Shown here piece by piece: positions 2,686 through 60,916 of a stretch of DNA of 64,000 nt (the first letter of the stretch is position 1; every line of letters begins with the position of its first letter). A model generated the notes under the pieces. The model made no database searches and was not told the origin of the DNA. It saw only the letters and a program-made list of their open reading frames with translations. The stretch is from positions 328,241 to 392,240 of the forward strand of contig CP070736.1 of NCBI GenBank assembly GCA_020347645.1, written 5' to 3'. Origin of the DNA: Methanobacteriota archaeon (lineage in GTDB: Archaea; Thermoplasmatota; Thermoplasmata; UBA10834). Made by a program: the position numbers and the translations under genes.

Positions 2686-4158
2686 CTACGGGATTGCCTG
2701 AAGGAGGGAGCCCGCAGCTTCACGGCACAGCTCCAGAACAGCGTCGAAGTAGATACCGAGCACGATTACCATTACAAGAGCAATCACTATTGCTGCTCCC
2801 GTCATCGTCGGGACGGTCACGCGCTCCTCGGGCCCCTTCTCCATATACATCTTCTTTATGACGCGCGCGTAGTAATACAGTGAGAGGGCGCTGTTCAAGA
2901 CTCCAGCCACGGCGAGCCAAACAAGCCAAGATGGTCCTGGGTCAATCGATGCATCGACGGCGGACGAGAACAGGACGAACTTGCTCGCAAAGCCTGCCAA
3001 CGGCGGAATGCCGGCCAAAGAAAGAAGGAACAACATCATGGCCAAGGCAAGGAACGGTGATCTCTTCCCGAGGCCTCTGAAATCATCCAGACTCTCGCCT
3101 ATTCCCCGCACCGTTAGAGCGGCAACAACCATGAACGCGCCTGACTTCATGAAAGCATGCGTGAGAACATGGAACAGGCCTCCGGCCACCGCATACTCGG
3201 TGCCTATCGGCAGCACGATCAGTATGTACCCCGCCTGCGCGATGGACGAGTATGCGAGCATCCTCTTGATGTTTGACTGTGAGATAGCGATAAGGTTGCC
3301 GACGGTCATCGTCACAACCGCTATCACGGCGATAGCCACTTCCCAGTCGGTCTTCGTCACGACGATTCCCACGAGGAATATCTTGAACATGGCTGCCACG
3401 CCCATCTTCTTGGACGCGGCTGCAAGCAGGCCGGAAATCGGGGTCGGTGCGCCTTCGTAGACGTCCGGAGCCCACATGTGAAACGGCACTGCCGCTATCT
3501 TGAATCCCAGCCCAGCGATCAGCATGACCGTTGCCAGGGTCGCTGCAGAGCGGATGCCATCGACTGACGAGAACATCGCCTCCATCTGCGGTCCCATGGC
3601 GGCTATCTCAGTGGTTCCTGAAACGCCATAGAAAAGCGAGATGGCGAAAAGAGTCATAGCGGAGGAGAATCCGCCAACTATGAAGTATTTCGTAGCGGCC
3701 TCGGCTGAACGCCTCTCCTTCTTGCTGAAACCCGAAAGCGCGAACGACGCGATGCCTGCAATCTCCAATCCTACGAACAGGACTATTAGATCCGTTGCGA
3801 GAGCAACAACGGTCATGCCTGTGACTGCCAGCAATATGAGCGAGTAGTATTCGCCCTGGTTTCTCTCGTTTCTTATGAACTCTGGCGAGCTGAGCGCGAC
3901 GATTATGCCGACTGCTACGAATGCCAAGGCGAAAGCGCCAGAGAACAGGTTGACCTCAATCAGCGGAACTCCGGTTTCGACCGATGGTGGCTGCCAATAG
4001 CCTCCCAATGTCCATGAGGCCAACGCAAACGCATATCCCAAGAGGGGGGTCAGTGCGACGAACGCGAGCCACCGTTTGTCCTTGACCATATAGTCCAGAG
4101 CGGGCATAATCAATGCGAAAAGGACCAACAGCAGCTGCGGCATGAACGCATTCAGCAT
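2686..4158 (-). CDS. nuoN: complex I proton-pumping subunit NuoN/FpoN
   Basis: Antiporter-like membrane subunit of about 490 aa with some 14 hydrophobic segments. The proton_antipo_M domain is visible as the AAVPFHMWAPDVYEGAPTPI stretch, with the conserved Lys of AASKKMG and the later HVLTHAFMKSGAF. It is the last gene of the nuo operon. The start at 4158 (MLNAFMPQ) has GGAGGT seven bases upstream; an ORF start at 4203 would overlap nuoM by 29 bp and has a polar N-terminus unlike the family, so it was not chosen. Convergent with menA, 32 bp away. Confidence 0.93.
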   Translation of the reverse strand: MLNAFMPQLLLVLFALIMPALDYMVKDKRWLAFVALTPLLGYAFALASWTLGGYWQPPSVETGVPLIEVNLFSGAFALAFVAVGIIVALSSPEFIRNERNQGEYYSLILLAVTGMTVVALATDLIVLFVGLEIAGIASFALSGFSKKERRSAEAATKYFIVGGFSSAMTLFAISLFYGVSGTTEIAAMGPQMEAMFSSVDGIRSAATLATVMLIAGLGFKIAAVPFHMWAPDVYEGAPTPISGLLAAASKKMGVAAMFKIFLVGIVVTKTDWEVAIAVIAVVTMTVGNLIAISQSNIKRMLAYSSIAQAGYILIVLPIGTEYAVAGGLFHVLTHAFMKSGAFMVVAALTVRGIGESLDDFRGLGKRSPFLALAMMLFLLSLAGIPPLAGFASKFVLFSSAVDASIDPGPSWLVWLAVAGVLNSALSLYYYARVIKKMYMEKGPEERVTVPTMTGAAIVIALVMVIVLGIYFDAVLELCREAAGSLLQAIP

Positions 4159-4174
4159 ATCCCAGACCTCCACC

Positions 4175-5692
4175 TCAGCCACCTCCAAATGCTCTGAGGG
4201 CAATCTCCACAGCCGGACCTATGCGTGAGAATACTAGCGATGGAAAAACGCCGAACAACGCGATTAGAAGGATTAGCACGGCTACCGGAACTCCTTCATA
4301 CCAGTCGACATCCTTTAGGTGCCAAGTGTCAATCTTCCCAGTCATCGGTCCAAACATTGAGCGCTGGAGAGCCCACAGATAGTACGCGGCTGTCACAGCG
4401 ACAGCGATCATCGGAAGAAATATCCAGAGTCCCCATTCGAAAAACACTGCGGCGAAGACCATGAACTCCGCAGCGAAGCTGACCAGTCCCGGAAGGCCGA
4501 GTGAAGCAAGGAAGCCGATGGCGATGAGAGTGGCGGCTATCGGCATCTTTCTCGCGAGTCCTCCCAAGAGGGAAATCAGTCTCGTGCCGCACTTGTGCTG
4601 CACAACCCCGCACATCATGAATAGAACGGCAGTAACCAAGCCATGAGCGAACATCTGGAAAACGCCCGCAACGACGCCCAACTCGCCAAGAGTAGAATAG
4701 CCCAGGAGCACGAAGCCCATATGGCTAATCGAGGAGTACGCTACCATCTTCTTCAAGTCGTCCTGGGCAAGACAGAGTATTGCGCCGTAGAGTATGCTGG
4801 CGACTGCTATCACGGCCATTACCGGAACCATGTCCTCTGCGCCGGACGGAAGCGACGGTATTGCCACGCGTATTAGGCCGTAGCCACCCATTTTGAGCAG
4901 GAGTCCAGCAAGGAGAACGCTTCCCGCAGTCGGCGCCTCAACATGCGCGTCGGGCAACCACGTGTGGAACGGCACCATCGGCAGCTTTACCCCAAAGCCG
5001 AAAAGCATCGCCGCGAAGATCGCGAGCTGCATCCCCCTGCTGAAATAAATGCTCTCACCTGCGATTGCCTCCATGCCGAAGGTTCCTATGTTGGCCTCGA
5101 AGTACATCGCCATGATGGCGAGGAGCATCGCAAGGCTCGCGATATGAGTATATATGAAGAACTTGATCGCTGCGTAATCCTTTCTTGGACCCCCCCAGAT
5201 GCCGATCAGGAAATACATTGGTATCAGGACTATCTCCCAGAATATGTAGAACATGAAATAGTCCAGTGCTACAAAGACTCCGAGGATGCCCACCTCCAAT
5301 ACTAGCATCAAACCGAAGTACTCTTTCGGCCTTCGATCCGTATCCCATGAGAATATGACAGAAAGCATACACAGCAACGTCGTCAAGACAAACAGCGGCA
5401 AGCTGATGCCATCAAGGCCAACGATATAGTTGATGCCAAGGGATTCAATCCACACATGCGATTCGTAGAATTGATATCCGTTGCTGTATCCGTCAATCTC
5501 GCCGGCGGAAGCGGAGTATGGGTCTACTACGAACTCGTAAGTGACCAATAACGAGAGTATGAACGCAGCAGCTGAGAAAGCGAGCGCGACCCATTTCGCC
5601 AAGTGTTCGCGTCTGCCGAGCATCAATGATGCAAGCGCTCCCACGAAGGGCAACAGGATTATCAACGATAGTATCGGGATATCCTCAATCAA
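4175..5692 (-). CDS. nuoM: complex I proton-pumping subunit NuoM/FpoM
   Basis: Antiporter-like membrane subunit of 505 aa with about 14 transmembrane segments. Characteristic stretches are KLPMVPFHTWLPDAHVEAPT, LLLKMGGYGLIRV and the YSSISHMGFVLLG segment. It forms one of the three distal proton channels of complex I. The start is a TTG one base after the nuoL stop, with GGAGGGTGG about ten bases upstream. Order nuoL-nuoM-nuoN is as in bacterial and Fpo complexes. Confidence 0.94.
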   Translation of the reverse strand: MIEDIPILSLIILLPFVGALASLMLGRREHLAKWVALAFSAAAFILSLLVTYEFVVDPYSASAGEIDGYSNGYQFYESHVWIESLGINYIVGLDGISLPLFVLTTLLCMLSVIFSWDTDRRPKEYFGLMLVLEVGILGVFVALDYFMFYIFWEIVLIPMYFLIGIWGGPRKDYAAIKFFIYTHIASLAMLLAIMAMYFEANIGTFGMEAIAGESIYFSRGMQLAIFAAMLFGFGVKLPMVPFHTWLPDAHVEAPTAGSVLLAGLLLKMGGYGLIRVAIPSLPSGAEDMVPVMAVIAVASILYGAILCLAQDDLKKMVAYSSISHMGFVLLGYSTLGELGVVAGVFQMFAHGLVTAVLFMMCGVVQHKCGTRLISLLGGLARKMPIAATLIAIGFLASLGLPGLVSFAAEFMVFAAVFFEWGLWIFLPMIAVAVTAAYYLWALQRSMFGPMTGKIDTWHLKDVDWYEGVPVAVLILLIALFGVFPSLVFSRIGPAVEIALRAFGGG

Positions 5693-5693
5693 C

Positions 5694-7655
5694 CTACCAC
5701 CACCCTCCTGGCGCTATATACAGCATGAACATCAGCAGTAGACAAAGCCCCACGACTATGATGGTTGTATAGCGCTGAACGTTCCCGCTCTGGGCCTTGC
5801 GCAACAAGTTGCCCGAGCGGGCGCCGAGGAACGCGAAGCCGTTCACCAAACCGTCTATTACAACGCGATCAAACGCGTCGGCCACGAGCGAGAAGGCATA
5901 GACCACCTTGACGGCGAAATCGTCGTAGAACTGACTGATATACCATCTATTCTGTAGTGCCCTCTGGAATCTGCCTGCAGTGCCGGTGGCAAACACCGTC
6001 CTATCGAACCCGGGAACGCAGTATATACGGTACGCCAAGACTATGCCTGCGATAGCTAGCACCAGAGAGACATAGGTGAGTGGGTCTCCGAATATATGGG
6101 CGAGAATGTCCACTGCGGATTCGTGATGCTCACCATGGTAAAGACCAGCAATCGATTCTCCAGCGAACACGCCGAAGCCGTCACCGACAAAAAGGGCAAA
6201 CCCTGATGAGACTGCCAGAACCGCGAGAATCATTAGCGGGACCGTCATAAGCTTGGGCGATTCATGCGCATGATAATCCGAGCGCGGCTTGCCTGCAAAG
6301 GTCATGAACCACATCCTGAACATATAGAACGCGGTCATGAACGCTGTCGCGATTCCCATAGCCCATAGGAGGAAGAACAGGCTGTCGAATTCTCCAGCGT
6401 TATACACTGCAGCGAGAACCTCGTCCTTGCTCCAGAACCCCGAAAGCGGCGGCACACCAGAAATGGCGATGGCGCCGACCAACATCGTGAGCGACGTAAT
6501 GCGCATCTTCTTCCCCAGACCACCCATCAATCTCATGTCGTTGGTACCGACGGCGTGTATGACGCTGCCCGCACAAAGGAACAGCAGCGCCTTGAAGAAC
6601 GCATGATTCATAAGGTGGAATAACGCGGCGGAGTATCCTCCCGCGGTGTCTGCATACACGACCAGATAACCACCCGCGCCAAGAGCGAGCGTCATGTATC
6701 CCAACTGGCTGATAGTGCTGTAGGCGAGAACCCGTTTGATGTCCGAAGCGGCAAGCGCGACTGTTGCAGCGATCAACGCGGTCACGCCACCGATGACGGC
6801 AACGAACAGCAGAGTCTCGGGGGCCTGCACAAGCAGCGGATACGATCGTGCGGTCAAGTAGACCCCGGCCTTCACCATTGTCGCCGCATGAATGAGAGCT
6901 GAGACTGTAGTCGGACCTTCCATGGCATCTGGCAACCATTCGTGCAACGGGAACTGGGCGCTCTTTCCGATCGCGCCGCCGAAGATCAGGGCAGTGGCGA
7001 GAATCATCATGTCGTTCGGAACGGCTGCTATTCCGTCCTCACCGAATAAGTTGTCAAAGCCGAGCGAACCCACGTACTTGAACAGGATTATTATGCCCGC
7101 CATGAACATAATGTCGCCCACACGCGTCACTATGAACGCCCTCTTGGCGGCACTCGCCGCTGAAGGCTTCTCGTACCAGAAACCTATCAACAGATAGGAG
7201 CACAAACCGACGAGTTCCCAGAATATGAACATCTGAAGGTAGTTGTCAGAAATGACGAGGCCGTACATGACGGATATGAACAGCATGATTTCGGCGTAGT
7301 ATCGCCGTCGCTTCTCTCCTTCCTCGTGCATGTAGCCGCCCGAGTAGACGACCACAAGCGTGCCCACGACAGAAACGACAAGCAGCATCACCGCCGTGAG
7401 TTGGTCTACCCATATTCCGAACGTGACCTCCAAGTTGGCAATCACTAGCCACGTGAACTTCGGACCATCTCCGACCATCGTATTGCCAGCTAAAACATCT
7501 CCGATCACCAAGGCGGAAAGGACAAGAGCTCCGGCAGCGCCGCCGATCGCATAACCCGCTCCGTCTTCCCAAGAGAGCGTGCGTTTTGGAAGCAGCGAGA
7601 TGAGCAGGAATGCCAAGAACGGAAACACCGGTATCAGCCATGCGTACTCCAGCAC
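5694..7655 (-). CDS. nuoL: complex I proton-pumping subunit NuoL/FpoL
   Basis: Largest membrane subunit, 653 aa. The QFPLHEWLPDAMEGPTTVSA stretch with HAATMVKAGVY and the Lys/His-rich antiporter core are clear, followed by a C-terminal region with the long lateral helix expected of NuoL (residues about 540-610) and a final membrane segment. The GTG start follows the nuoK stop by one base and has GAGGTGGT upstream. In complex I it pumps protons and its lateral helix clamps NuoM and NuoN. Confidence 0.94.
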   Translation of the reverse strand: MLEYAWLIPVFPFLAFLLISLLPKRTLSWEDGAGYAIGGAAGALVLSALVIGDVLAGNTMVGDGPKFTWLVIANLEVTFGIWVDQLTAVMLLVVSVVGTLVVVYSGGYMHEEGEKRRRYYAEIMLFISVMYGLVISDNYLQMFIFWELVGLCSYLLIGFWYEKPSAASAAKRAFIVTRVGDIMFMAGIIILFKYVGSLGFDNLFGEDGIAAVPNDMMILATALIFGGAIGKSAQFPLHEWLPDAMEGPTTVSALIHAATMVKAGVYLTARSYPLLVQAPETLLFVAVIGGVTALIAATVALAASDIKRVLAYSTISQLGYMTLALGAGGYLVVYADTAGGYSAALFHLMNHAFFKALLFLCAGSVIHAVGTNDMRLMGGLGKKMRITSLTMLVGAIAISGVPPLSGFWSKDEVLAAVYNAGEFDSLFFLLWAMGIATAFMTAFYMFRMWFMTFAGKPRSDYHAHESPKLMTVPLMILAVLAVSSGFALFVGDGFGVFAGESIAGLYHGEHHESAVDILAHIFGDPLTYVSLVLAIAGIVLAYRIYCVPGFDRTVFATGTAGRFQRALQNRWYISQFYDDFAVKVVYAFSLVADAFDRVVIDGLVNGFAFLGARSGNLLRKAQSGNVQRYTTIIVVGLCLLLMFMLYIAPGGWW

Positions 7656-7656
7656 T

Positions 7657-7977
7657 CTACCACCTCAGGATACTGATCTTATCGATCTCGATAGTCTGGT
7701 AACGCCTATACACGGAGAGGAGAATGGCCAATCCGACCGCTACCTCTGCTGCGGCTATGGCGATCGTGAACAAAGTGAAGACATATCCTGAAGGGTCAAC
7801 GACCCCGTGCAGGACGGAGTGATACGAGCTGAACATCACCAGATTTATGTTCGCGGAGTTGAGCATAATCTCGATGCACATGAGCACGACTATCGCATTT
7901 CTGCGGGTTAGGACGCCGTAGGCCCCTATGCAGAAGAGGAGCGAGCTGAACACCAGCCAATACTCGATCGGTATCAT
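7657..7977 (-). CDS. nuoK: complex I membrane subunit NuoK
   Basis: A 106-aa protein with three hydrophobic helices, the family length. The conserved membrane glutamates are visible in VLMCIEIMLNSANINLV and in AAAEVAVGLAI. The ATG overlaps the nuoJ2 stop as ATGA, so translation is probably coupled. NuoK forms part of the E-channel between the quinone site and the antiporter subunits. Confidence 0.93.
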   Translation of the reverse strand: MIPIEYWLVFSSLLFCIGAYGVLTRRNAIVVLMCIEIMLNSANINLVMFSSYHSVLHGVVDPSGYVFTLFTIAIAAAEVAVGLAILLSVYRRYQTIEIDKISILRW

Positions 7978-8222
7978 CCTTTCTCATCCTCCTCCTTCGC
8001 AAGGAATACGCCTCCGAGCATGGCGACAAGCAACAGCAAGCCGACCAGAAACACTACGAGGCCGTAACCCTCAGCCCCGCTCACACCGAAAAGGGTGTTT
8101 CCAATATCCTCGTTGGATACTTGATCCATATCGCCTTCTGGCCAGGATGCGTCCGTGACGGCAAGCACCAAAAGGAGCGCGAGAAGACCGATCGACGCTA
8201 GCTTGAGTGCGCTCTGCCTCAT
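7974..8222 (-). CDS. nuoJ2: complex I subunit J, C-terminal part (split NuoJ)
   Basis: An 82-aa protein with an N-terminal hydrophobic helix (residues about 6-24), a polar loop and a second helix (about 52-76) ending in charged residues. It follows the N-terminal NuoJ half with an ATGA overlap and precedes nuoK with another. Bacterial NuoJ is a single protein of about 170-200 aa; here it is split into two, as in the fpoJ1/fpoJ2 arrangement reported for Methanosarcina (established). The sequence alone is weakly diagnostic; position and topology carry the call. Confidence 0.75.
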   Translation of the reverse strand: MRQSALKLASIGLLALLLVLAVTDASWPEGDMDQVSNEDIGNTLFGVSGAEGYGLVVFLVGLLLLVAMLGGVFLAKEEDEKG

Positions 8223-8488
8223 TTCCTCTCACTCTCCATGATCTCACGCCGGGTGAGCATTATACCGAACAGAATGACTATTGTGACTGCGCCGACGTAC
8301 ACGAGGAACTGCACTATTGCCACGAACTCCGCATTCAGCATTATGAACAGGCAGCCAATCGCTATAAAGCAAGAAACGAGACCGATCACGCTGTGGACTA
8401 TCTCCTTGGCATTGATCACCCACAGTGCGGATAACAACGCAGTCGATGCGAGAAACAGGAACACTAGCAACTCCCATGTCAACGTCAT
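8219..8488 (-). CDS. nuoJ1: complex I subunit J, N-terminal part (split NuoJ)
   Basis: An 89-aa membrane protein with three helices. It contains the NuoJ pattern NAEFVAIVQFLVYVGAVTIV, where the conserved Glu/Gln-Tyr-Gly segment forms the pi-bulge region of TM3 in known structures. The ATG at 8488 overlaps the nuoI stop as ATGA and has GGGGGTGGAG directly upstream; a longer ORF from 8557 would run through the nuoI end and was rejected. Partner of the 82-aa half that follows. Confidence 0.88.
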   Translation of the reverse strand: MTLTWELLVFLFLASTALLSALWVINAKEIVHSVIGLVSCFIAIGCLFIMLNAEFVAIVQFLVYVGAVTIVILFGIMLTRREIMESERK

Positions 8489-9402
8489 CTCTCCACCCCC
8501 GACATGCTGATCGCATCGAACCGGCACGTCTGATAGCACCTGCCGCAACCGACGCACTTCTCAAGCACAAACACTGCTCTCTTCTTCGGCTTGCCCTTCT
8601 TGCCGCCCTTCAGGGTCTTCTCGGTTCCTGGCATCTCGTACATATAGATCGCTTCCGAAGGGCACTTCCTTGCACAGGCGCCGCATCCTGAGCACTTGTC
8701 GAGCATCAGCTTCGGCTCGGGCATTTCGAAGTACGACTCGTACACCTCGGTCATTGTGAGCGCCTTCTCTGGGCAGACCTCGGCGCATATTCCCTTTGAC
8801 GAACACTTGGAGAGGTTGATCTCGGGTTTCTTGGCGTCGGTCTTTTCGATCGGCATCATGGCTATGCAAATCTCAGGGCATTCGCCGGCACACTTCTCGC
8901 ACCCGTTACATTTCGATAGATCGAGCACTGGAACGAGCCGTTTCTGTCTTTCCTCGGTGAATGTCGATCCGAAGGCGTCGTCCCGGATATCTTTCGGGCC
9001 GAGCTTTAGCTCGTCCCTCTTGTCGTTGGCGAGCTCGAACTCCGTGGTCATGTGAAGGGCGACCGTCGGGCATACTTCAGCGCAGAAGCCGCAGAACAGA
9101 CATCGACCCAGGTCGACTCCCGGCCGCTCTATCTTTCCGAGCTCTGGGTCATCTATCTTTTCGAGCCACATACAATCATTCGGGCATATCGTCACACAGT
9201 TTCCACAGCCTATGCACTTCTTGAAATCAAGGACATGCTTGCCCCTGTAAACCTGCGGAAGATCTAGCTTCTGCTCCGGATACAGGACCGTATTGGGTTT
9301 GCCGAGGATGAGTGTTCGCACGAGTTGGCTGCCGGTCCTCTTCATAGGCTTGAGGACAAAACCGAGCGAACCTCGCTTTCTCGGTCTGCCACCCGCAACC
9401 AT
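8485..9402 (-). CDS. nuoI: complex I ferredoxin subunit NuoI with extra Fe-S tail
   Basis: 305 aa, about twice the usual NuoI length. Residues about 60-115 are normal NuoI with two 4Fe-4S motifs (CIGCGNCVTICP and CLFCGFCAEVCP). The tail then adds four more cluster motifs: CNGCEKCAGECP (C165-C175), CSSKGICAEVCP (C200-C210, with Lys in place of the second Cys), CSGCGACARKCP (C237-C247) and CVGCGRCYQTCR (C283-C293), with a Lys/Gly-rich linker at about 262-275. The ATG at 9402 overlaps the nuoH stop as TGATG, with GGAGGCTGG upstream. Since NADH and F420 modules are absent, the tail may extend the electron-input wire or dock a carrier such as ferredoxin (inference). Confidence 0.9.
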   Translation of the reverse strand: MVAGGRPRKRGSLGFVLKPMKRTGSQLVRTLILGKPNTVLYPEQKLDLPQVYRGKHVLDFKKCIGCGNCVTICPNDCMWLEKIDDPELGKIERPGVDLGRCLFCGFCAEVCPTVALHMTTEFELANDKRDELKLGPKDIRDDAFGSTFTEERQKRLVPVLDLSKCNGCEKCAGECPEICIAMMPIEKTDAKKPEINLSKCSSKGICAEVCPEKALTMTEVYESYFEMPEPKLMLDKCSGCGACARKCPSEAIYMYEMPGTEKTLKGGKKGKPKKRAVFVLEKCVGCGRCYQTCRFDAISMSGVER

Positions 9403-10529
9403 CAAAACCAGCCTCCTGTCTTCAAAACGGCTGCAATCAACAGATTAAGCACGGCGAGCGGGAGTAGCCTCCTCCATCCGAGGCCGAGCATCTGATCGAT
9501 TCTTATTCTCGGTACAGACCATGTCAGCCACATGAAGACGGTGTAGACGATGTACGCCTTTATGAGAAACCATATCTCATCGGGAATCAACGATGGTCCC
9601 TGCCAACCGCCCAGGAAAAGTGCGGTCGCGAGTGCTCCACCTGCGTACGACCTTATGGCTGTCGTCATGTAGAACAACCCGAACCTCATGCCGCCGTACT
9701 CGGTCGTCCACCCTTCCACTAGCTCCGCTTCGGCCTCGGGCAGGTCGAACGGAACAATCTCCACCTCTGCTATCAGACAGACCAGGAAGACAACAAAACC
9801 GATGAACATGGGTACGAAGAACCATATGTCGCGTTGCGCATCCACGATATCCACGAAGTTGAAACTCCCAGCGAGAAGGAAGACGCTGGCGGCGCACAGT
9901 ATCAAAGGTATTTCGTAGCTCATCATCTGAGCCGCGGACCTCATGCCACCAATCAGGGTGTACTTGTTGTTCGAAGACCATCCCGCAAGCAGAATTGCGA
10001 ATGGGGCGATTGAGAAGGCCGCCAACGCAAAAAGCGCTCCCGCAGGAACGTACTCTCCTGAGCTGTTGGTGGAGAGTCCGAAATTCTCGCTGAGGGGAAT
10101 GACCGAAAGGATGAGCAGAGACGATCCGACGAAGATGATAGGAGCGAGGAAGAACCCCAGTTTGTCGGCCTTTGTTGGAACGATAATCTCCTTGAGGAAG
10201 AGTTTGATGCCGTCTGCCAGGTTCTGAAGCCAACCTCCAATCCTATATCCGACGTAGTACGGTCCGTAGAAGTCAAGTATCCGGCCACTTATCTTCCTGA
10301 AGATCCAAAGGAAGTTGAGCACGTTTATTAGGGCAACCAGGATGATGATTATGCTCTCTAGTAGGATCGTCATGAAGGACAGATGACTGTCCGACGCAGC
10401 GAAATCCCCCACTCCGGTAAAGAAATCACCGAAGTACCAGGGCAGAACATCTCCTAACCGATACCATAGGTTGTTGACGAGGTCCACGAGCCAGTGGATG
10501 ATACCGTAGCAGAATTCGAACAGGTTCAT
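9402..10529 (-). CDS. nuoH: complex I quinone-site membrane subunit NuoH
   Basis: About 375 aa with eight or nine hydrophobic segments. Family stretches: ADGIKLFLKEIIVPTKAD, the AGWSSNNKYTLIGGMRSAAQ segment, EVEIVPFDLPEAEAELVEG and LTWSVPRIRIDQMLGLGWR. NuoH forms the quinone entry chamber and connects the hydrophilic arm to the membrane arm. The start at 10529 (MNLFEF) has AGGTGAGGT just upstream and lies 4 bp after the nuoD stop; the longer ORF from 10565 would overlap nuoD by 32 bp. Confidence 0.93.
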   Translation of the reverse strand: MNLFEFCYGIIHWLVDLVNNLWYRLGDVLPWYFGDFFTGVGDFAASDSHLSFMTILLESIIIILVALINVLNFLWIFRKISGRILDFYGPYYVGYRIGGWLQNLADGIKLFLKEIIVPTKADKLGFFLAPIIFVGSSLLILSVIPLSENFGLSTNSSGEYVPAGALFALAAFSIAPFAILLAGWSSNNKYTLIGGMRSAAQMMSYEIPLILCAASVFLLAGSFNFVDIVDAQRDIWFFVPMFIGFVVFLVCLIAEVEIVPFDLPEAEAELVEGWTTEYGGMRFGLFYMTTAIRSYAGGALATALFLGGWQGPSLIPDEIWFLIKAYIVYTVFMWLTWSVPRIRIDQMLGLGWRRLLPLAVLNLLIAAVLKTGGWF

Positions 10530-10533
10530 GACC

Positions 10534-11616
10534 TCACCTATCGTTCTCCCCCAGACACATGTCAAGCCCGCCCATGATGACTACGACATCGGCCAATTTG
10601 TAGCCGACGAGAATCTTTGGGGCTGCCGATAACGTCACGAATATCGGGCTCCGGATCTTGAGCCTGTACGGCTTGTCCGAGCCGTCCCCGACGACGTACA
10701 TGACTGCTTCACCCCTGGGGTCTTCCACCCTGCCGAGCCCCGTGCTAGCAGGAGCGTTTCGAGGCGCAACGACTCTCCACTTGCCCTTTGGCATCTTCTT
10801 AAGAGCCTGGCGTATGATGCTGCAGCACTCCCACATCTCGTCCATCCTGACTCTGTAGCGAGCGTAGCAGTCACCATCCTTGTGCGTTGCTACGTTGAAA
10901 TCGATCTCAGGGTAGACGGAGTACGGCATGTCCTTCCTCAGGTCATAGGATGCGCCGCTTGCCCTCAGGGATGGGCCCGTTACGCCTAGATCTATGCCAT
11001 CCTCCTTTCGAAGAATGCCAATCCCGACATTCCTCATCATGAAGATCTTTGAGTTGTCGAAGAGGTCCTCGTATTCCTTGAGACGCTGTTCCATGTACCG
11101 GACAGTACGCAACGCATCCCTCTCGAAATTCGGCGGGAGGTCGTGCGCAACACCTCCGATCCTTGGGTAGTTGTAGGTCAATCTTGATCCGGCAAGACCC
11201 TGAAGGAGGTCTATGAAGACCTCCCTGTCCCTCATAGCGTTCGTGAATCCCACCGACAAACCGAGATCGCCTGCGTATGCTGCAAGCCACATTAGGTGGG
11301 AGGCAATCCTCTGCATCTCGATGGCCATCACTCTTATGTATTCTGCACGCTCGGGGACCTCGACATCCATCAAATCCTCTGCCGTTAGGCAGTAAAGATG
11401 AGACCAGGTGAAGGACGACCCATAGCAGAGCCTATCCGCTATCGGAATGATCTGCGGGTATGTCAGCCCCTCGCATATCTTTTCAATACCTCTGTGAAGG
11501 TACCCCACCTCCGGCTCGGCGTCTACAATGGTCTCACCATCGACCTTTACTCTTAGGTTCCAGAGTCCGTGTGTCATCGGGTGCTGGGGTCCCATATTGA
11601 TCCACATCTCAGCCAT
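10534..11616 (-). CDS. nuoD: complex I 49-kDa subunit NuoD
   Basis: 360 aa, related to the large subunit of Ni-Fe hydrogenases. N-terminal NMGPQHPMTHG is the quinone-site loop, followed by GYLHRGIEKICEGLTYPQ. The C-terminal Ni-binding cysteine pairs of hydrogenases are absent, as expected for complex I. It is separate from NuoC, not fused as in Escherichia coli. It lies between nuoC (6 bp gap) and nuoH in the operon. With NuoB it forms the quinone-reducing site. Confidence 0.94.
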   Translation of the reverse strand: MAEMWINMGPQHPMTHGLWNLRVKVDGETIVDAEPEVGYLHRGIEKICEGLTYPQIIPIADRLCYGSSFTWSHLYCLTAEDLMDVEVPERAEYIRVMAIEMQRIASHLMWLAAYAGDLGLSVGFTNAMRDREVFIDLLQGLAGSRLTYNYPRIGGVAHDLPPNFERDALRTVRYMEQRLKEYEDLFDNSKIFMMRNVGIGILRKEDGIDLGVTGPSLRASGASYDLRKDMPYSVYPEIDFNVATHKDGDCYARYRVRMDEMWECCSIIRQALKKMPKGKWRVVAPRNAPASTGLGRVEDPRGEAVMYVVGDGSDKPYRLKIRSPIFVTLSAAPKILVGYKLADVVVIMGGLDMCLGENDR

Positions 11617-11622
11617 GCACGG

Positions 11623-12132
11623 TCACCCCCTGAAATCCTTCCTGAGCGGATGGTAGAGCACATCCTTAGGCAGGAGTATCCGCTCGAGTTTCGGGTGGTT
11701 GCGGAACACAACACCCATGAGGTCATACGACTCCCTCTCCTGCCAGTTCGCGCCGCCCCAGATCGACGATATGGAGTCCACGGTAGGGTCGGTCTTCGGA
11801 GCTGATGTAATGAGTTCAAGCAGGAGTCCCGCCTGATGCGACGTTATATGGTAGACTACTTCAAACCCATCATCGTATTCCACCGCTGAAATCATAGTGA
11901 GATGTTCGAAGCCATGGTGGTCCTTGAGGCTCCTGCAGACGCTGTAGAGGTCCGAGCGGTCCACACGTGCGCGTATGAATCTGGGCTTCACCTGTGCTCC
12001 ATCCGAAACCGTCTCTGGGAAGGCTTCAGTCAACGCCCTCAGCACTCTTTGTCCGGGATCAGCATCAATTCTGCTGGGAGCAGTCTCGATACTATTGGTC
12101 CCTGTCGAGCCTCGTTCATCCCCCTCAGACAT
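11623..12132 (-). CDS. nuoC: complex I 30-kDa subunit NuoC
   Basis: 169 aa. The family signature YHITSHQAGLLLELIT is weaker than usual, but the C-terminal part with SIWGGANWQERESYDLMGV, NHPKLERILLPKD and a final YHPLRKDF is diagnostic. The first 30 residues are polar and low in complexity. The start has GGTGGCGG about four bases upstream. NuoC is a peripheral scaffold of the hydrophilic arm. Between nuoB and nuoD in standard order. Confidence 0.92.
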   Translation of the reverse strand: MSEGDERGSTGTNSIETAPSRIDADPGQRVLRALTEAFPETVSDGAQVKPRFIRARVDRSDLYSVCRSLKDHHGFEHLTMISAVEYDDGFEVVYHITSHQAGLLLELITSAPKTDPTVDSISSIWGGANWQERESYDLMGVVFRNHPKLERILLPKDVLYHPLRKDFRG

Positions 12133-12143
12133 TCTGCCGCCAC

Positions 12144-12716
12144 CTACCTGCCCGTGAGCAGGCCTTTCTTATTCTTCTTAATCAGTTTTTGAAGCTTCAG
12201 GAAGCCGTCTATCAAGGCCTCGGGCCTGGCAGGACAGCCAGGAATGTAGATATCCACAGGTATGAACTGGTCCACACCGGGGACTACGCTGTAGCTGTTG
12301 TAGAACGGTCCGCCCGAAATGGCGCATTCGCCCATCGCCATCACCCACTTCGGCTCAGGCATCTGGTCGTACAGCCTTCTCAACGCTGGCTTCAGCTTCT
12401 TGGTAACTGGTCCATTGACCAAAAGCACATCGCACTGTCTAGGGCTTGATCTCGGTATGATCCCAAACCGCTGCTGGTCAAATCTCGGGGCCGACGCGAC
12501 CGCCATCTCCAAGGCGCAACACATGATCCCGAAGTGGAGAAAGTAGAGCGAATTCCTTGTTGCCCAGTTGAAGAAATCTTTGGTGATAAAATCAACGCTG
12601 CCAGCTACGGGGGATTTTCGGAGGAGGTATTCCATTGCATTATCGGACCATTTCAGGAAGTCCTTGGACCTGAACATTACCGCCTGTCCTAAAGAGTGCT
12701 CGGCCTTCCCGCTCAA
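12144..12716 (-). CDS. nuoB: complex I subunit NuoB (cluster N2)
   Basis: 190 aa. The four N2 cluster ligands are present: the tandem Cys of [11 protein letters not shown], the Cys of [10 protein letters not shown] and the Cys of [36 protein letters not shown] is also typical. NuoB passes electrons to the quinone. The start is a TTG whose last base pair overlaps the nuoA stop (TTGA), with GGAGGT about ten bases upstream. The N-terminal 45 residues are longer than in many bacteria but follow the Fpo type. Confidence 0.94.
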
Positions 12717-15736: not shown

Positions 15737-15845
15737 GATGAGGAGCAACTCTTCTTGCTGCGAGGCATGCGCTACATTTATCAACATCGAAGATATCCTG
15801 GGAATCGACAGTATACTCTGACTCAATTCGAAATCGGTGAAACCA

Positions 15846-17003
15846 ATGAGAGACATCTCAGAGATCGAGAAGGACCTCAACGCATGTCTGCAATGCGGAT
15901 ATTGTCGGGACCCCTGTCCCATATACAAGAGCATAGGCTGGGAGTCGGCAACACCCCGAGGAAAGGTGTACTACCTCAAGCAGATAGCGTATCAATCGCC
16001 TATTGATAGGATTCTCAGACGTCGCCCCAAGGTGGACGAGAAGCTGACAGAACGCATATTCCAGTGCACCTCTTGCGGTGCATGCGAGCACAACTGCCAT
16101 GTCGAAATCGAGTTTCCCCACCTCTGGGAGGAGGTCAAGGAATGGTTGATTTCGCAGGGCTATGGCCCCATGGAGGCACACAAGCGAATAGCCCAGAGGG
16201 TCATAGGTAAGAAGAATCCATTCGACGAGCCCGCTGAGAAGCGCGCTGATTGGCTCCCGGATGACGTCAGACTGTCGGATGACCCAGAGGTTGTCTTTTT
16301 CACGGGGTGTACGGAGGCCTACAGGATGCAGCCGCTCGCGGCCGCCACTGCGAAGCTACTTGACAAGGCCGGGGTCAAATTCACAATCATGGGAGAGGAA
16401 GAATGGTGCTGCGGTTCACCTCTTCTACGAACAGGACAGAAGCTCCCAGTTATGCGGGAAGTCGCTCCGCACAACGTACGCGAGATGGAGAAACATGGCT
16501 GGAAGGTTATGGTGAGTGCCTGTGCAGGCTGCTACAACACTATCAAGAACGATTACCCAAAGATTGTGGGCAAGCCATCATTCGAATTGTACCATATCTC
16601 GGAATACCTTGAGAAGCTAATAAAGGACGGGCGGCTCAAGTTCACAAAGGAGTTCAACAAGAAGGTCGCGTACCACGACCCATGCCATCTCGGAAGACAC
16701 GCAAAGGTCTATGATGCCCCAAGGAACGTTCTGAAGGCGATTCCAGGGCTGGAGCTCGTGGAGATGAAGCATGAACGCGACGATTCGCAGTGTTGTGGCG
16801 CTGGAGGAGGTTTCAAAGCCGCCTTCAACGACATGGCCGAGTCAATAGCCGCCGACAGAGTCAAGGAGGCTGTGCGAGCGGGAGCAGAATTGATTGTTAC
16901 ATCGTGTCCGTTCTGTCTGGTCAATCTAAACGCAGGCGCCAAAAAGGCCGGATTGGACATCAAGACTGTTGATGTCGTTCAGGTCGCGCTGCAGGCGGTC
17001 TAG
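15846..17003 (+). CDS. HdrD/GlpC-like iron-sulfur protein with two CCG domains
   Basis: 385 aa. Two 4Fe-4S motifs at the N-terminus (CLQCGYCRDPCP at residues 14-25 and CTSCGACEHNCH), then two cysteine-rich CCG domains with EEWCCGSPLLRTG/ACAGCYNT and SQCCGAGGGFKA/SCPFCLVNL. CCG domains hold noncubane clusters in heterodisulfide reductases, or electron-transfer sites in glycolate, lactate and glycerol-3-phosphate systems. No membrane or flavoprotein partner is adjacent, so the substrate is unknown. The ATG at 15846 has GGTGA five bases upstream; the GTG at 15837 is the alternative. The end overlaps the convergent AlkD gene by 44 bp. Confidence 0.85.
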   Translation: MRDISEIEKDLNACLQCGYCRDPCPIYKSIGWESATPRGKVYYLKQIAYQSPIDRILRRRPKVDEKLTERIFQCTSCGACEHNCHVEIEFPHLWEEVKEWLISQGYGPMEAHKRIAQRVIGKKNPFDEPAEKRADWLPDDVRLSDDPEVVFFTGCTEAYRMQPLAAATAKLLDKAGVKFTIMGEEEWCCGSPLLRTGQKLPVMREVAPHNVREMEKHGWKVMVSACAGCYNTIKNDYPKIVGKPSFELYHISEYLEKLIKDGRLKFTKEFNKKVAYHDPCHLGRHAKVYDAPRNVLKAIPGLELVEMKHERDDSQCCGAGGGFKAAFNDMAESIAADRVKEAVRAGAELIVTSCPFCLVNLNAGAKKAGLDIKTVDVVQVALQAV

Positions 17004-22809: not shown

Positions 22810-24117
22810 TTGGACAAGAATCGAGTTGTCGTAATCGGTGGCGGCATAGCGGGCATTCAGGCATCGTTGGATCTTGCCGACCGGGGATACGAAGTGCACG
22901 TTGTTGAGAAATCACCTTCGATCGGAGGACACATGGCTCAGCTTGACAAGACCTTCCCGACAAACGATTGCTCGTTGTGCATACTCTCCCCTAAGATGAT
23001 ATCCTGCGCGGATCACGACAATGTCGTCCTGCATACGTACTCCGAACTGGATTCAGTCGACGGAGCATATCCCGATTTCAAGGTGAGAATTCGCGAAAAA
23101 GCCAGGTTCATCAACACGGACCGGTGTACTGCGTGCGGAGACTGCATAGCCAAATGTCCCGTCAAGGTCCCGAGTGAATTCGAAGAAGGACTGTCGAAGC
23201 GGAAGGCGATATACCTTCCGTTTCCTCAAGCGGTCCCAAGGAAGGTCACTATCGATAAGGATCATTGCAGGATGCTGACGAAAGAGAAGTGTGGGGTATG
23301 CAAGAAGATATGCCAGGCAGGTGCCATAGACTACGAACAAGAGGATAGAATCGTAGAATTGAGTGCCTCAGCAGTCGTGGTGGCCAACGGCTTTGACCTG
23401 ATGGACGCTACTTCGATGCCCCAATTCGGCCTCGGGATATGCAAGGATGTAATCACATCGATTCAATTCGAGAGAATCCTGTCAGCATCTGGACCTACAA
23501 ATGGACATCTTCAGCGTCCGTCCGACGCCACGGAACCGAGAAATCTGGGCTTCGTGCAGTGCGTTGGCTCTCGCGATGCCAAGACCCACAATTACTGCAG
23601 CAGCGTGTGCTGCATGTACGCGACGAAAGAGTCGATTCTCGCGCGCGAACACGCTCCGGATGTCGATATCGCAATATTCTACATGGATATGAGAGCTACC
23701 GGAAAGGGGTTCCAGGAGTTCGTGTCCCGAGCCAAGGAGACCTATGGGGTTAGATACATCCGATCGAGACCTGCGAAGATACAGCCGGCGAACGGCGACA
23801 GTGGCGTTCTCATGAGCTATGAGACAAGAGGGCTCGACGGCGAGTCGAAGACGGAGGAATTCGACATGATGGTGTTGTGCCCGGCCCTGTTGCCTTCGGG
23901 GGACAACGCACGCCTGGCTGAGATGCTCGGCGTCGAGCTTGACGATGACGGATTCTTCAGAACCCCTGACCTGATCCACCCAGTGGACACGACTGGCAGA
24001 GGGATACTGGTATGCGGATTTGCCAGCGGCCCGATAGACATACCAGACTCAGTATCCCAGGCGTCAGCAGTTGCTGCGCGTGCCGCAGAACTCATTGAAG
24101 GGGGTGAACTCCGATGA
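22810..24117 (+). CDS. hdrA: HdrA-type flavoprotein, QmoA-like (formate module)
   Basis: 435 aa. FAD-binding VVVIGGGIAGIQAS at the N-terminus and EKSPSIGGHM; next the HdrA cysteines C54, C57 and C66; an inserted two-cluster ferredoxin region (CTACGDCIAKCP at 106-117 and C153/C161/C164/C168); then the FVQCVGSR and YCSSVCC motifs shared by HdrA and QmoA. It lacks the HdrA N-terminal domain and the C-terminal ferredoxin, which the next gene supplies. HdrA proteins bifurcate or confurcate electrons at FAD. TTG start with GAGGAGGG upstream. First gene of a five-gene operon ending in fdhA. Confidence 0.87.
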   Translation: MDKNRVVVIGGGIAGIQASLDLADRGYEVHVVEKSPSIGGHMAQLDKTFPTNDCSLCILSPKMISCADHDNVVLHTYSELDSVDGAYPDFKVRIREKARFINTDRCTACGDCIAKCPVKVPSEFEEGLSKRKAIYLPFPQAVPRKVTIDKDHCRMLTKEKCGVCKKICQAGAIDYEQEDRIVELSASAVVVANGFDLMDATSMPQFGLGICKDVITSIQFERILSASGPTNGHLQRPSDATEPRNLGFVQCVGSRDAKTHNYCSSVCCMYATKESILAREHAPDVDIAIFYMDMRATGKGFQEFVSRAKETYGVRYIRSRPAKIQPANGDSGVLMSYETRGLDGESKTEEFDMMVLCPALLPSGDNARLAEMLGVELDDDGFFRTPDLIHPVDTTGRGILVCGFASGPIDIPDSVSQASAVAARAAELIEGGELR

Positions 24118-25808
24118 CGAGAATAGGCGTGTTTATATGCCATTGCGGACACAATATCGCCTCCGCGATCGACATCGAGAAGGTAGTTGAGTATGCGAAG
24201 GGGCTTCCTGGCGTGGCATACGCGGGGCACAACCTGTACTCATGTTCTCAAGAGGGGCTCGGTTCAATCAAAAAGAGTATTGAAGATAACGACCTGGACA
24301 GGGTGGTCGTAGCGGCATGCACGCCGCGAACCCACGAACCATTGTTTAGAAGAGCTTGTGAGCAGGCTGGCATCAACAAATACCTGTTCGAATTCGTCAA
24401 CATCAGAGAGCACTGTTCATGGATCCACGCAAAAGAACCAGAAGCTGCGACAGAGAAGGCGAAGAAGCTCGTAGCCATGGGCGTCGCCAAAGCGGCGCTG
24501 CTTGAACCGCAGGAGGAAGGCGAATCCGAGGTCGTTCCGAGGACAGTCGTCATAGGAGCAGGGATATCTGGACTGGCTGCGACCGCATCCCTTCTGGAGC
24601 AGGGAATAGAGACGCATTTGGTGGAGAGGGGCGACCGTGTAGGCGGATTGTTGAAAGACATATCGATGGTGGGTCCCGAAGGAATCTGCTCAAGAGATTT
24701 GATTGAGGCGCTCGTGGATGACATCGAAAATTCGCCCAAGGCGCACCTACACCTCAACTCGCGTGTCAAGGAGTTGAAGGGATTCATTGGCAACTTCGAT
24801 GTCATCATCACCAAGGGGGATGAAGATCTAACAGTCAAAGCCGGTGCCATAATCGTTGCCACTGGCGCGCAAGAGCTGCAACCAAAGGGAGAATATGGGT
24901 TTGGTGAACACCCGGCCGTGATTACACAGCTGGAGCTTGAGAGAAGGCTCGGTCGCTCTGGCTTGGCCGCGAAGAAGATTGTGATAGTCAACTGCACGGG
25001 TAGTAGGCAACCTGGAAGGGAGTACTGTTCCAGGATATGCTGCAACGCCTCTCTGAAGAATGCGATTCGAATATTGGAGGCGAATCCGGAGGCAAAGATC
25101 ACCATCCTTCACAGAGACATCATGAGTTGCGGTACCACGGCGGAGGCACTGTACAGAGAGGCTTCGGAGAAAGGTGTGAGGTTCGTAAGGTATGGACTGG
25201 AGCAGAAGCCTGGAATCAGCACCCACGGCAAGAGCATCAAGCTCAAGGTGTTCGACGAAGCCCTTGATGAAAGCATCGACCTCGATGCTGACCTGATTGT
25301 GTTGGCGACTCCGCTCGTCTCACCTGATGATTCGGAAGAGACAAGCAAACTGCTCAAAGTTCCACGAGACAAATACGGATTCTTCCTCGAAGCACACGTC
25401 AAGCTGAGACCGGTCGAATTTGCGACGGATGGGGTTTTCGTGTGCGGGTCCGCAAGATGGCCAGTCAGTGCGAGAGAGTCCATCTGGCAGGGACAGGCCG
25501 CTGCGGCCAAGGCATCCATTCCCATAAGCGAGGGAAAGGTCCGAATTGAGGCAATCACAGCGGAGGTGGACTCTGAAAAATGTGCTGCGTGCGGAAACTG
25601 CGTGTTGGCCTGCCCTTACGAGGCAATCGAAATCGTCGATGACGAGGGTCGGAGAGCTGCCAAGGTCAGTGAGGCGCAGTGCAAAGGCTGTGGCACATGC
25701 GTTGCCGCCTGTCACAACGATGCAATACAACAGAAGGGTTTCAGCAGCAGACAGCTCGGTGCGATGATTGACGCTCTGGCAAGGGCGAGCACGGAGGGAA
25801 CCCAATGA
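24114..25808 (+). CDS. hdrA: HdrA-type flavoprotein, QmoB-like (formate module)
   Basis: 564 aa. Residues 1-140 are the HdrA N-terminal domain (GVFICHCGHNI and a CTPRTHEPLF segment). A second FAD domain follows (TVVIGAGISGLAATAS, ERGDRVGGLL), with VNCTGSR, YCSRICC and FVCGSARWP. Two 4Fe-4S clusters close the protein (CAACGNCVLACP and CKGCGTCVAACH). ATGA overlap with the previous gene. Together the two proteins cover a complete HdrA plus an extra flavin domain, as in the QmoA/QmoB pair of sulfate reducers (established family relation). Partner choice here is inferred from the operon. Confidence 0.87.
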   Translation: MTRIGVFICHCGHNIASAIDIEKVVEYAKGLPGVAYAGHNLYSCSQEGLGSIKKSIEDNDLDRVVVAACTPRTHEPLFRRACEQAGINKYLFEFVNIREHCSWIHAKEPEAATEKAKKLVAMGVAKAALLEPQEEGESEVVPRTVVIGAGISGLAATASLLEQGIETHLVERGDRVGGLLKDISMVGPEGICSRDLIEALVDDIENSPKAHLHLNSRVKELKGFIGNFDVIITKGDEDLTVKAGAIIVATGAQELQPKGEYGFGEHPAVITQLELERRLGRSGLAAKKIVIVNCTGSRQPGREYCSRICCNASLKNAIRILEANPEAKITILHRDIMSCGTTAEALYREASEKGVRFVRYGLEQKPGISTHGKSIKLKVFDEALDESIDLDADLIVLATPLVSPDDSEETSKLLKVPRDKYGFFLEAHVKLRPVEFATDGVFVCGSARWPVSARESIWQGQAAAAKASIPISEGKVRIEAITAEVDSEKCAACGNCVLACPYEAIEIVDDEGRRAAKVSEAQCKGCGTCVAACHNDAIQQKGFSSRQLGAMIDALARASTEGTQ

Positions 25809-26224
25809 ATGACTTCAATCCGAACATACTGGCATTCTGCTGCAACTGGTGTTCGTATGCAGGAGCGGACCTAGCAGGCGTCAACCGTCTGCAGATGCCT
25901 CCGAACGTGAACGTCGTCAGAGTGATGTGCAGCGCAAGCGTCAAGCCTGAATACGTTTTCAAAGCGATTTCCCAGGGCATCGACGGTGTCCTGGTTCTAG
26001 GATGCCATATCGGTGACTGCCACTACCTCACAGGCAACCATCGAACCGCCAAACGCATCCCGCTAGCAGCGAAGATCCTTGATAAGGTTGGCATTGACTC
26101 CAGGCGCGTGAGACTCGACTGGGTCAGTGCTGCAGAGGGAGAGAAGTTCCAGAAGGTCGTGACGGAGTTCGTCGAGGAGATGAGAAGCCTCGGACCCAAC
26201 CCGATGAAGGAGGTGAGATTCTGA
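25805..26224 (+). CDS. mvhD: MvhD/HdrA-linked 2Fe-2S electron carrier
   Basis: 139 aa, family length. Conserved cysteines in FCCNWCSYAGADLAG, RVMCSASVKP and VLGCHIGDCHYLTGN are all present. In methanogens MvhD binds a 2Fe-2S cluster and passes electrons from hydrogenase or formate dehydrogenase to HdrA. Here it sits between the HdrA pair and the formate dehydrogenase genes, with ATGA and CTGA overlaps, the expected wiring. A paralogue at 38591-39010 has lost one of these cysteines. Confidence 0.93.
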   Translation: MNDFNPNILAFCCNWCSYAGADLAGVNRLQMPPNVNVVRVMCSASVKPEYVFKAISQGIDGVLVLGCHIGDCHYLTGNHRTAKRIPLAAKILDKVGIDSRRVRLDWVSAAEGEKFQKVVTEFVEEMRSLGPNPMKEVRF

Positions 26225-27021
26225 GCACAGACACTAATAAGATCGTACGCCTCGCCTTCGAGGAACGAGGAGCGAACTACCTTCTCGCTGCCAGGGAAGA
26301 GCACGGGAACGTTGCCCCGGTGTTGCTCGAGAGAGTCGACAATCCCGGCAAGCTGAGATTCGATGTCCCGTATCAGATGGCGATGATCCTGACCAAGATC
26401 AATCGGTTTGTCAAAGAAGGCAAGATAGCGATCGTGGCCCGCAGGTGCGACGAAAAGGCCATTGCGGAGTTGGTCAAGCGGGATCTCTTGGACGGCAGTC
26501 GTCTTGAGTTGATAGGCCTGGCGTGCAGCGCTGAACAGGTGGAAGCCTGCAGATGCACGGATCCATGCCCCAGCCGCGTGGACATTGGACAGCCTTCGGA
26601 ACCGGTGAAGGACGACCAAAACTTCGCAGGCATGCTAGATATGAGCCTTGAGGATCGCCTCGACTTTTGGATAAATCAGTTTCGCAAGTGCAACAAGTGC
26701 TTTGGCTGTACCCTCAACTGCCCCGTGTGTTTCTGCGACGAGTGCTTGTTGGAGGAGAAAACCTTCGCACCGGACAAAGGAATTCCGCCGGGTCTCACGT
26801 TCCACCTTATCCGTACCGTGCATCTTGCAGACAAGTGCGTCGAGTGCGGAGAATGTGAGAGATCATGCCCAGTGGACATTCCACTCCTCTCGTTGAGGAA
26901 GATGGTAAACCGGGACATGAAGAAGATGTTCAACTACGTCAGTGGAGATCCGGAACGCATGAGCCCGTTGCTCACCACGCTCGAGGGGGACCCGATGGAG
27001 GATGATCCCAATGTCTGTTAA
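26221..27021 (+). CDS. iron-sulfur protein linking MvhD and FdhA (FrhB/FdhB-like)
   Basis: About 266 aa. An N-terminal alpha/beta region with GNVAPVLLERVDNP and IAIVARRCDEKAIAEL precedes Cys-rich segments: CRCTDPCP, CNKCFGCTLNCPVCFCDEC and CVECGECERSCP, enough for at least two 4Fe-4S clusters. Related Fe-S proteins accompany MvhD and formate dehydrogenase or heterodisulfide reductase genes in many anaerobes. The likely start is a CTG at 26221: GGAGGTGA ends four bases upstream, and CTGA overlaps the mvhD stop just as ATGA does elsewhere in this operon. The first standard start, GTG at 26320, has no SD site and would remove 33 residues. Confidence 0.75.
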   Translation: MSTDTNKIVRLAFEERGANYLLAAREEHGNVAPVLLERVDNPGKLRFDVPYQMAMILTKINRFVKEGKIAIVARRCDEKAIAELVKRDLLDGSRLELIGLACSAEQVEACRCTDPCPSRVDIGQPSEPVKDDQNFAGMLDMSLEDRLDFWINQFRKCNKCFGCTLNCPVCFCDECLLEEKTFAPDKGIPPGLTFHLIRTVHLADKCVECGECERSCPVDIPLLSLRKMVNRDMKKMFNYVSGDPERMSPLLTTLEGDPMEDDPNVC

Positions 27022-35754: not shown

Positions 35755-37011
35755 ATGACAACCAAGGTCCTCGTGATAGGTGGGGGTCCTGCGGGCTTGA
35801 CTGCAGCGGAGACCCTTGTGAGCAGGAAACAGGAAGTAGTGTTGGTCGAGAAAGAGGACAGCCTTGGAGGCATGGCTCGGGAACTTGCATGCAAGGGCAT
35901 CTCTGAATGCAGAGATTGCGGCGTGTGTTACGCTATCGACCGAGCTGACGAGGCCACCAGGACCCCTGGTCTGGAGGTGCTTCTAAAGTCGAACGTGACT
36001 TCCTTGGAAAGGGTCAACGGGGGTTTCAAAGTCAAGATACGCTCCCTGCCACGTTATGTCACCGGAGATTGCATAGACTGCAACAAGTGCGTCGAAGCCT
36101 GTCCTGTCGACGGCAAAGCGATTTTCGCACCTACTGGAAGCGGCAGACCGCGCCCTTACTGGATTGACCGCGGCAAATGCCTCCACTTCAAGAAGAGCAA
36201 GTGCGAGAAATGCGCGCAGGTATGCCCTACTAATGCAGTCGATTATGAAGACAGGGCAAAGAACGTGACCAGGAATGTGTCAAGAGTGATTCTCGCGACT
36301 GGAATCGAGCCGACTGATGCGAGGGAAGTGCCGCGTTTAGGCTACGGCACGGTTCCGAACGTGGTGTCAAGCGTGGACGTCGAGAGGATCCTCAACGACG
36401 AGGGGCGGGTTGTCAGACCATTGGATGGAGTGGCGCCGAAGAAGGTGGCAATGATACAGTGTGTGGGTTCCCGCAGCGAGAAATCCGGCGTCGAGTACTG
36501 CTCGAAGTTCTGCTGCAAGTACGGCACAAAGATCGCGCAGCTCATGATGGATGGCGACCCAGACATGGACCTGGATTTCTATTTCATGGACCTGAGGACA
36601 CTATATGAGCCTCAGGAGGACTTCAAGCGATGGGCAAAAGGCATGAAGAGGAAGGTGGAGAAGAAGAAGGTACCGCGGGTCAGACTAATAAGGAGTATGC
36701 CGTCTCAGGCATACCCGGGAGAGGAAGGCAAGATCTGGCTGAGGTCTTCGGGAGAGACCGACTCCGAGGTGACTGAGACTCCCTATGACCTCGTAGTATT
36801 ATCCGTAGGCATGAAGCCGCGAGCATTGCCAGAGAGTCTCACTTCTCCCCTGGGCGTGACCCTTGATTGCCACGGGTTTGCCCGGTGTGAGACTTCGGAC
36901 TGTGACCAGAAGGTGCTTGCACTCGGTGCTGCCTGCGGACCTATGGACATCGAGGAGACCGTCACCAACGCAATCGCTGCCGCAGCGATTCCGCCGAAGG
37001 AGGGGAATTGA
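35755..37011 (+). CDS. hdrA: HdrA-type flavoprotein, QmoA-like (methylene-THF module)
   Basis: 418 aa. FAD motif VLVIGGGPAGLTAAET with EKEDSLGGMA; HdrA cysteines in ECRDCGVCYA; inserted ferredoxin region (CIDCNKCVEACP and C-x(6-7)-CEKCAQVCP); then IQCVGSR and YCSKFCC. Domain order matches the protein at 22810-24117, but sequence has diverged clearly, so the two operons are old paralogues. It begins an operon of five genes ending in metF, joined by short overlaps. Probable role: electron transfer between a low-potential carrier and the MetVF reductase (inference). Confidence 0.85.
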   Translation: MTTKVLVIGGGPAGLTAAETLVSRKQEVVLVEKEDSLGGMARELACKGISECRDCGVCYAIDRADEATRTPGLEVLLKSNVTSLERVNGGFKVKIRSLPRYVTGDCIDCNKCVEACPVDGKAIFAPTGSGRPRPYWIDRGKCLHFKKSKCEKCAQVCPTNAVDYEDRAKNVTRNVSRVILATGIEPTDAREVPRLGYGTVPNVVSSVDVERILNDEGRVVRPLDGVAPKKVAMIQCVGSRSEKSGVEYCSKFCCKYGTKIAQLMMDGDPDMDLDFYFMDLRTLYEPQEDFKRWAKGMKRKVEKKKVPRVRLIRSMPSQAYPGEEGKIWLRSSGETDSEVTETPYDLVVLSVGMKPRALPESLTSPLGVTLDCHGFARCETSDCDQKVLALGAACGPMDIEETVTNAIAAAAIPPKEGN

Positions 37012-60762: not shown

Positions 60763-60800
60763 CTGATTCCAACACCTGCAGCCTCCAGGACGAGCGGGGC

Positions 60801-60810
60801 GCAATATAAG
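60801..60810 (-). promoter_or_regulatory. TATA box of radA
   Basis: CTTATATTGC on the minus strand; a transcript start near 60780 leaves a leader of about 18 bases. Confidence 0.55.
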
Positions 60811-60916
60811 CGTATTGATTGGAGGTACGCGAAAATGGGCGTCTTCTGGCTCACAGTGCGTCTCCTGAAAGGCTCTGACGACCACGGAGTCCGCGCTGCT
60901 GGCTGCCACCAAAAGG

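Follow-up and report, generated by a model that had tools for sequence, protein, structure and literature searches.

How electrons enter a complex I of 11 subunits is an open question in bacteria as well as in archaea. The window analysed here, a stretch of 64,000 nucleotides from an archaeal genome of the Thermoplasmatota, raises it in a particular form. It carries a complete operon for such a complex (nuoABCDHIJJ'KLMN, minus strand, 13114 to 2686), whose NuoI protein continues far beyond the two usual iron-sulfur motifs. The following genes were assigned, the subunits around NuoI from sequence and operon order, and NuoI itself by the family model TIGR01971:

12713..13114 (-): nuoA
12144..12716 (-): nuoB
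11623..12132 (-): nuoC
10534..11616 (-): nuoD
9402..10565 (-): nuoH
8485..9405 (-): nuoI, 306 aa, TTG start, six cluster motifs
7657..8486 (-): nuoJ (two parts) and nuoK
2686..7655 (-): nuoL, nuoM and nuoN, the proton-pumping subunits

The assignment to the headless, 11-subunit type is based on this complete operon and on the absence of NuoF from all 21 genomes of the order. NuoD gives a marginal score with PF00374, over its N-terminal 69 positions. No gene for a redox partner lies inside the operon or is fused to one of its genes; a UbiA-like prenyltransferase and a polyprenyl synthase follow downstream. Divergent from the operon and near nuoA, a gene for an HdrD/GlpC/TfrB-like iron-sulfur protein is located at 15837-17003 (+), a position kept in family f1 and in one genome of family f2 (G020). 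Its product may be a partner or a terminal reductase of the complex.

NuoI scores 167.1 bits with the NCBIfam model TIGR01971 (cut-off 113), with residues 34-139 as the best stretch. It has both CxxCxxCxxxCP motifs, and its gene adjoins nuoH. Motifs 1 and 2 comprise Cys 64-74 and 102-112 (CIGCGNCVTICP and CLFCGFCAEVCP, within residues 58-120). Past residue 120 follow 186 residues (9045-8488), which agrees well with the tail of about 190 residues in the original prediction, made from the letters alone. The four extra motifs that it had described after the two normal ones were all recovered, at residues 166-176 (CNGCEKCAGECP), 201-211 (CSSKGICAEVCP), 238-248 (CSGCGACARKCP) and 284-294 (CVGCGRCYQTC). 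The interval given there, 8485-8980, omits some of the linker. When the tail was shuffled 20,000 times, four motifs of this C5xC3xC type never appeared together, which rules out their origin by chance. Along the gene, the protein is organized as follows:

9046..9234 (-): canonical NuoI core, residues 58-120, motifs 1-2, clusters N6a/N6b, from alignment to NuoI in solved complex I structures
8935..9045 (-): linker, residues 121-157, the least conserved part (mean 54.7% identity among six-motif proteins)
8734..8934 (-): first extra ferredoxin dicluster, residues 158-224, motifs 3-4, with a PorD/KorD-like stretch at 156-220
8785..8805 (-): CSSKGIC of motif 4, residues 201-207, with Lys for the second Cys (H/Q/E/C in relatives)
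8497..8718 (-): second extra ferredoxin dicluster, residues 230-303, motifs 5-6, all eight Cys invariant in 19 of 19 proteins

A NuoI with six motifs, 297-325 aa long and in a single frame, was found in 19 of the 21 genomes of the order. In the two remaining genomes, NuoI is cut by a contig end (G016) or has no match in a fragmented assembly (G009). Motifs 1-2 of the core are invariant in the 19 relatives. Between the sister family (G019) and family f1, identity amounts to 75% in the core, 47% in dicluster 3-4 and 67% in dicluster 5-6; the last almost matches the core in conservation. With dN/dS of approximately 0.04-0.26 in both diclusters, the tail is, by this measure, under purifying selection. 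Together with the single frame throughout the order, this rules out a frameshift or gene-fusion artefact; such an artefact, or loss of the tail in relatives, had been named beforehand as the outcome that would speak against the prediction, and instead the frame is open and the tail is kept.

Of the 16 ligand positions in the tail, 14 hold Cys in every one of the 19 proteins with six motifs. Variation is confined to the second Cys of motif 3 and of motif 4, and never affects both in the same protein. In motif 4, this position (204) is Lys here, as had been noted, and His in the remaining six genomes of the genus; elsewhere it is Gln (two genomes), Glu (one) or Cys (nine). In motif 3, the two f2 genomes have Lys instead of the second Cys. 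Lys as a hallmark of the family is ruled out, as position 204 may be K, H, Q, E or C in relatives and the Lys of the sister family sits in motif 3. The Lys in CSSKGIC is thus a lineage-specific loss of one Cys ligand. Loss of the second Cys in motif 3 or 4 has apparently occurred several times (L012, L008, L009, L018, L019). In known ferredoxins, such a loss leads to [3Fe-4S] clusters or to clusters with a ligand other than Cys. The tail cluster that is without its second Cys is cluster 4 in the genus of the window and cluster 3 in the sister family; it is therefore probably of the [3Fe-4S] type or a [4Fe-4S] site with a ligand other than Cys.

Taken by itself, the tail shows sequence matches to FwdF, MvhB and further polyferredoxins, and residues 236-301 resemble the ferredoxin domains of HdrA and FwdF. 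An AlphaFold2 model built from 34 sequences (mean pLDDT 82.8, pTM 0.62) repeats, at residues 155-222 and 243-293, the succession of strands and short helices that is typical of ferredoxins. A Foldseek search against the PDB returned FwdF, the polyferredoxin of formylmethanofuran dehydrogenase, as the best match, followed by NuoI subunits of complex I; the FwdF overlap has an rmsd of about 21 A and thus speaks for the domain type, not for the global arrangement. The protein is not itself a FwdF, as it reaches 77.8 bits with NF042909 against a cut-off of 375. The tail of the four-motif FpoI from a Methanomassiliicoccus was also modelled confidently. Sequence and model both reveal two 2[4Fe-4S] diclusters, in which one of the 16 ligand Cys is Lys. 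The view of the tail as a genuine, conserved polyferredoxin domain with two tandem folds of the bacterial ferredoxin type and four predicted cluster sites is therefore well supported, and all of these sites presumably hold clusters.

Which electron inputs do the genomes encode? In the order, all 21 genomes lack the C-terminal domains of NuoF (PF10589) and of FrhB/FpoF (PF04432) as well as RnfD/NqrB (PF03116), each of which gave matches in control genomes. The absence of NuoF and FpoF and the FwdF/MvhB likeness in sequence and predicted fold give good support to the earlier suggestion that a headless complex I has a polyferredoxin joined to its input end. An F420H2 dehydrogenase (Fpo/Fqo) is not indicated, since PF04432 is lacking in 21 of 21 genomes and the FpoI model NF040612 gives 113.7 bits, below its cut-off of 180. 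On the other hand, 2-oxoacid:ferredoxin oxidoreductases (Por/Kor, PF01855) occur in each of the 21 genomes with three to five matches. Most genomes of the order encode two NiFe hydrogenase large subunits besides NuoD; in the genome of the window, where these two are the only ones, sequence and gene order suggest one of the MvhAGD-HdrA type and one of the HydADGB type (group 3b), and no energy-converting (group 4) hydrogenase was seen. Given Por/Kor and the lack of NuoF, FpoF and Rnf, and with no energy-converting hydrogenase seen, the headless complex I is the obvious membrane outlet for reduced ferredoxin.

We consider it fairly probable, if well short of certain, that the tail is a built-in polyferredoxin input module, by which ferredoxin feeds a complex I without NuoEFG and FpoF. 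Reduced ferredoxin would dock on the tail, and electrons would hop from cluster to cluster along it, reach N6a and N6b in NuoI and pass on to N2 in NuoB. A membrane quinone would then be reduced, with the membrane arm pumping protons meanwhile, and the tail would replace the missing NADH-reading part as the site of electron entry. The headless Fpo of Methanomassiliicoccus luminyensis, a species whose genus has a four-motif FpoI, is reported to pump protons and to oxidise the reduced ferredoxin that HdrABC-MvhADG supplies (PMC7374477, citing Kroeninger 2019; also PMC6019823). Ferredoxin fits best as the donor because of this precedent, the presence of Por/Kor in 21 of 21 genomes, the lack of Rnf and the group 4 hydrogenase not being seen; we infer that the tail lies in the electron path. 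Of the two sources named in the original prediction, a carrier or an Hdr complex, the first is thereby favoured, and nothing links the tail directly to the second.

Several facts count against the input-wire reading, namely families of Thermoplasmata with a two-motif NuoI, one tail cluster without full ligands, the pTM of 0.62 and the lack of a partner gene in the operon. For the Fpo of Methanothrix (Methanosaeta), which lacks FpoF and has no known extension, use of ferredoxin was reported or proposed (PMC4153887, PMC9012536). Ferredoxin can thus feed such a complex without a tail; the length of the NCBIfam FpoI model, only 135 positions, also counts against the need for one. The tail may set the choice of partner or the rate, not the reaction itself. 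The related families with two motifs also speak for a tail that is a redox side branch or a structural cap, which would steady the exposed end of the Q-module at the NuoG site or store electrons off the main path. The variable linker and the second ligand lost from cluster 3 or 4 in several lineages suit this reading too; a plain cap, however, would not need the 14 ligand Cys that are invariant across the order, and we hold it to be improbable.

Instead of serving free ferredoxin, the tail might dock one specific partner protein and take up its electrons. Candidates are the HdrA-MvhAGD hydrogenase, a complex of formate dehydrogenase with HdrA, and the HdrD/GlpC-like product of the gene near nuoA. 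The genome encodes HdrA pairs with FdhF as well as the HdrA-MvhAGD hydrogenase, dicluster 5-6 resembles a ferredoxin domain of HdrA, and FwdF is the polyferredoxin subunit of the solved Fdh-Hdr-Fwd complex 7bkb. Likeness between diclusters is generic, however, and the nuo operon holds no Hdr gene. The HdrD-like gene stays near nuoA in f1 and G020, but its orientation is divergent, and in G054 (f20) no such gene was found in the vicinity of nuo. On balance, a dedicated partner seems rather unlikely. Very improbable, finally, is operation in reverse, in which menaquinol and the proton motive force would drive ferredoxin reduction via the tail. Complex I is reversible in principle, and low-potential chemistry suits such a tail. 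The several ferredoxin-reducing Por/Kor per genome and the lack of Rnf, however, call for an oxidising outlet, and the Methanomassiliicoccus precedent runs in the forward direction.

An input module fed by ferredoxin, the reading we prefer, has partial counterparts in known systems. The headless Fpo-like complex of the Methanomassiliicoccales (FpoABCDHIJKLMN) has the same set of 11 subunits without FpoF/FpoO, and its FpoI (L036-L048) also bears a C-terminal extension with ferredoxin motifs. There, a single dicluster is added where the present protein has two, giving four motifs in 229-254 aa, and that complex, unlike the present one, is coupled to HdrD in a methanogen. FwdF and MvhB use tandem ferredoxin diclusters as a wire, and the structural match of FwdF (rmsd about 21 A) spans most of the length; both, however, are subunits in their own right, of formylmethanofuran dehydrogenase or of Mvh-Hdr complexes, and are not fused to NuoI. 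In the energy-converting hydrogenases Eha and Ehb, a polyferredoxin feeds an ion pump resembling complex I, but there it is a separate gene product and belongs to a hydrogenase. Photosynthetic NDH-1 and other 11-subunit forms lack NuoEFG and have ferredoxin as the donor, as proposed here. NdhI matches the two-motif core of NuoI only, and ferredoxin docks on NDH-1 via extra subunits (PMC11238625).

Within the phylum, the extension occurs in two lengths. We read 34 four-motif NuoI proteins with one extra dicluster (229-291 aa where the start is clear). They belong to families f6, f9, f10, f15, f19, f20, f21, f23, f24, f27, f29, f30, f32 and f33 of the same class and to the named Methanomassiliicoccales Methanomassiliicoccus, Methanoplasma and Methanomethylophilaceae. 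Outside the class, but within the phylum, families f36 and f52 have this form too. Two motifs are found in families f4, f5, f8, f11, f12, f14, f17 and f18, including Thermoplasmatales-like and other Thermoplasmata. Outside Thermoplasmatota, every NuoI that we read among the best 80 relatives of the public genome set, a sample and no census, has two motifs. The named six-motif relatives among these 80 are MAGs, e.g., CP070748.1, CP070732.1 and RBG_13_57_23. The NuoI of family f3 (L141:6299-7366) is greatly extended at its N-terminus, and its third motif is degenerate (YDGCSKC). In f19 (L179) and f15 (L180), nuoA and nuoB are divergent from nuoC onwards, and f19 has nuoM in two copies. NuoF (PF10589) occurs in the class mostly in families with a two-motif or no NuoI; one genome of the four-motif family f10, however, has PF10589, and PF04432 proteins occur in some four-motif families. 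This pattern, confounded by relatedness, is at most suggestive of a strict exclusion of NuoF by the tail.

In a tree of the NuoI core, which has too few columns to bear on a single origin of the tail across the class, the six-motif proteins form one clade (100/98). In a dicluster tree, again with few columns, dicluster 5-6 groups with the single dicluster of f9 (98/96), apart from 3-4; on the same small number of columns, a simple tandem duplication within the order is still compatible with the data in an AU test (p = 0.07). The second dicluster may have arisen here by duplication, or the other lineages may each have lost one. One may speculate, and we regard it as quite doubtful, that a built-in polyferredoxin as input arm dates far back in the Thermoplasmatota branch of archaeal complex I and is a defining trait of it. 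Lineages would then have retained one or two diclusters, and the middle cluster, which recurrently has three Cys, would act as a higher-potential gate or branch point admitting more than one donor.

Full-text literature searches for a NuoI or FpoI that is extended or fused to a polyferredoxin brought up no account of the tail, though an earlier mention may exist, subscription papers being mostly outside their scope. For complex I, a survey of archaeal fusions (PMC11237513) names BC and BCD fusions. A headless complex I with an integral polyferredoxin arm thus appears to be a form for which no description was found. A covalent wire would mark the point of electron entry and make it open to a deletion test. 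As the Methanomassiliicoccales, including gut methanogens, have the four-motif form, the idea is testable in cultured M. luminyensis.

Two HdrA-like proteins are encoded elsewhere in the window, each as adjacent halves (22810-29047 and 35755-40628, both +), one pair beside a formate dehydrogenase-like gene and the other beside MetF/MetV-like and folate C1 genes. A RadA recombinase gene at 59302-60912 (-) contains an apparent in-frame mini-intein (end VLHNT) in its Walker A region.
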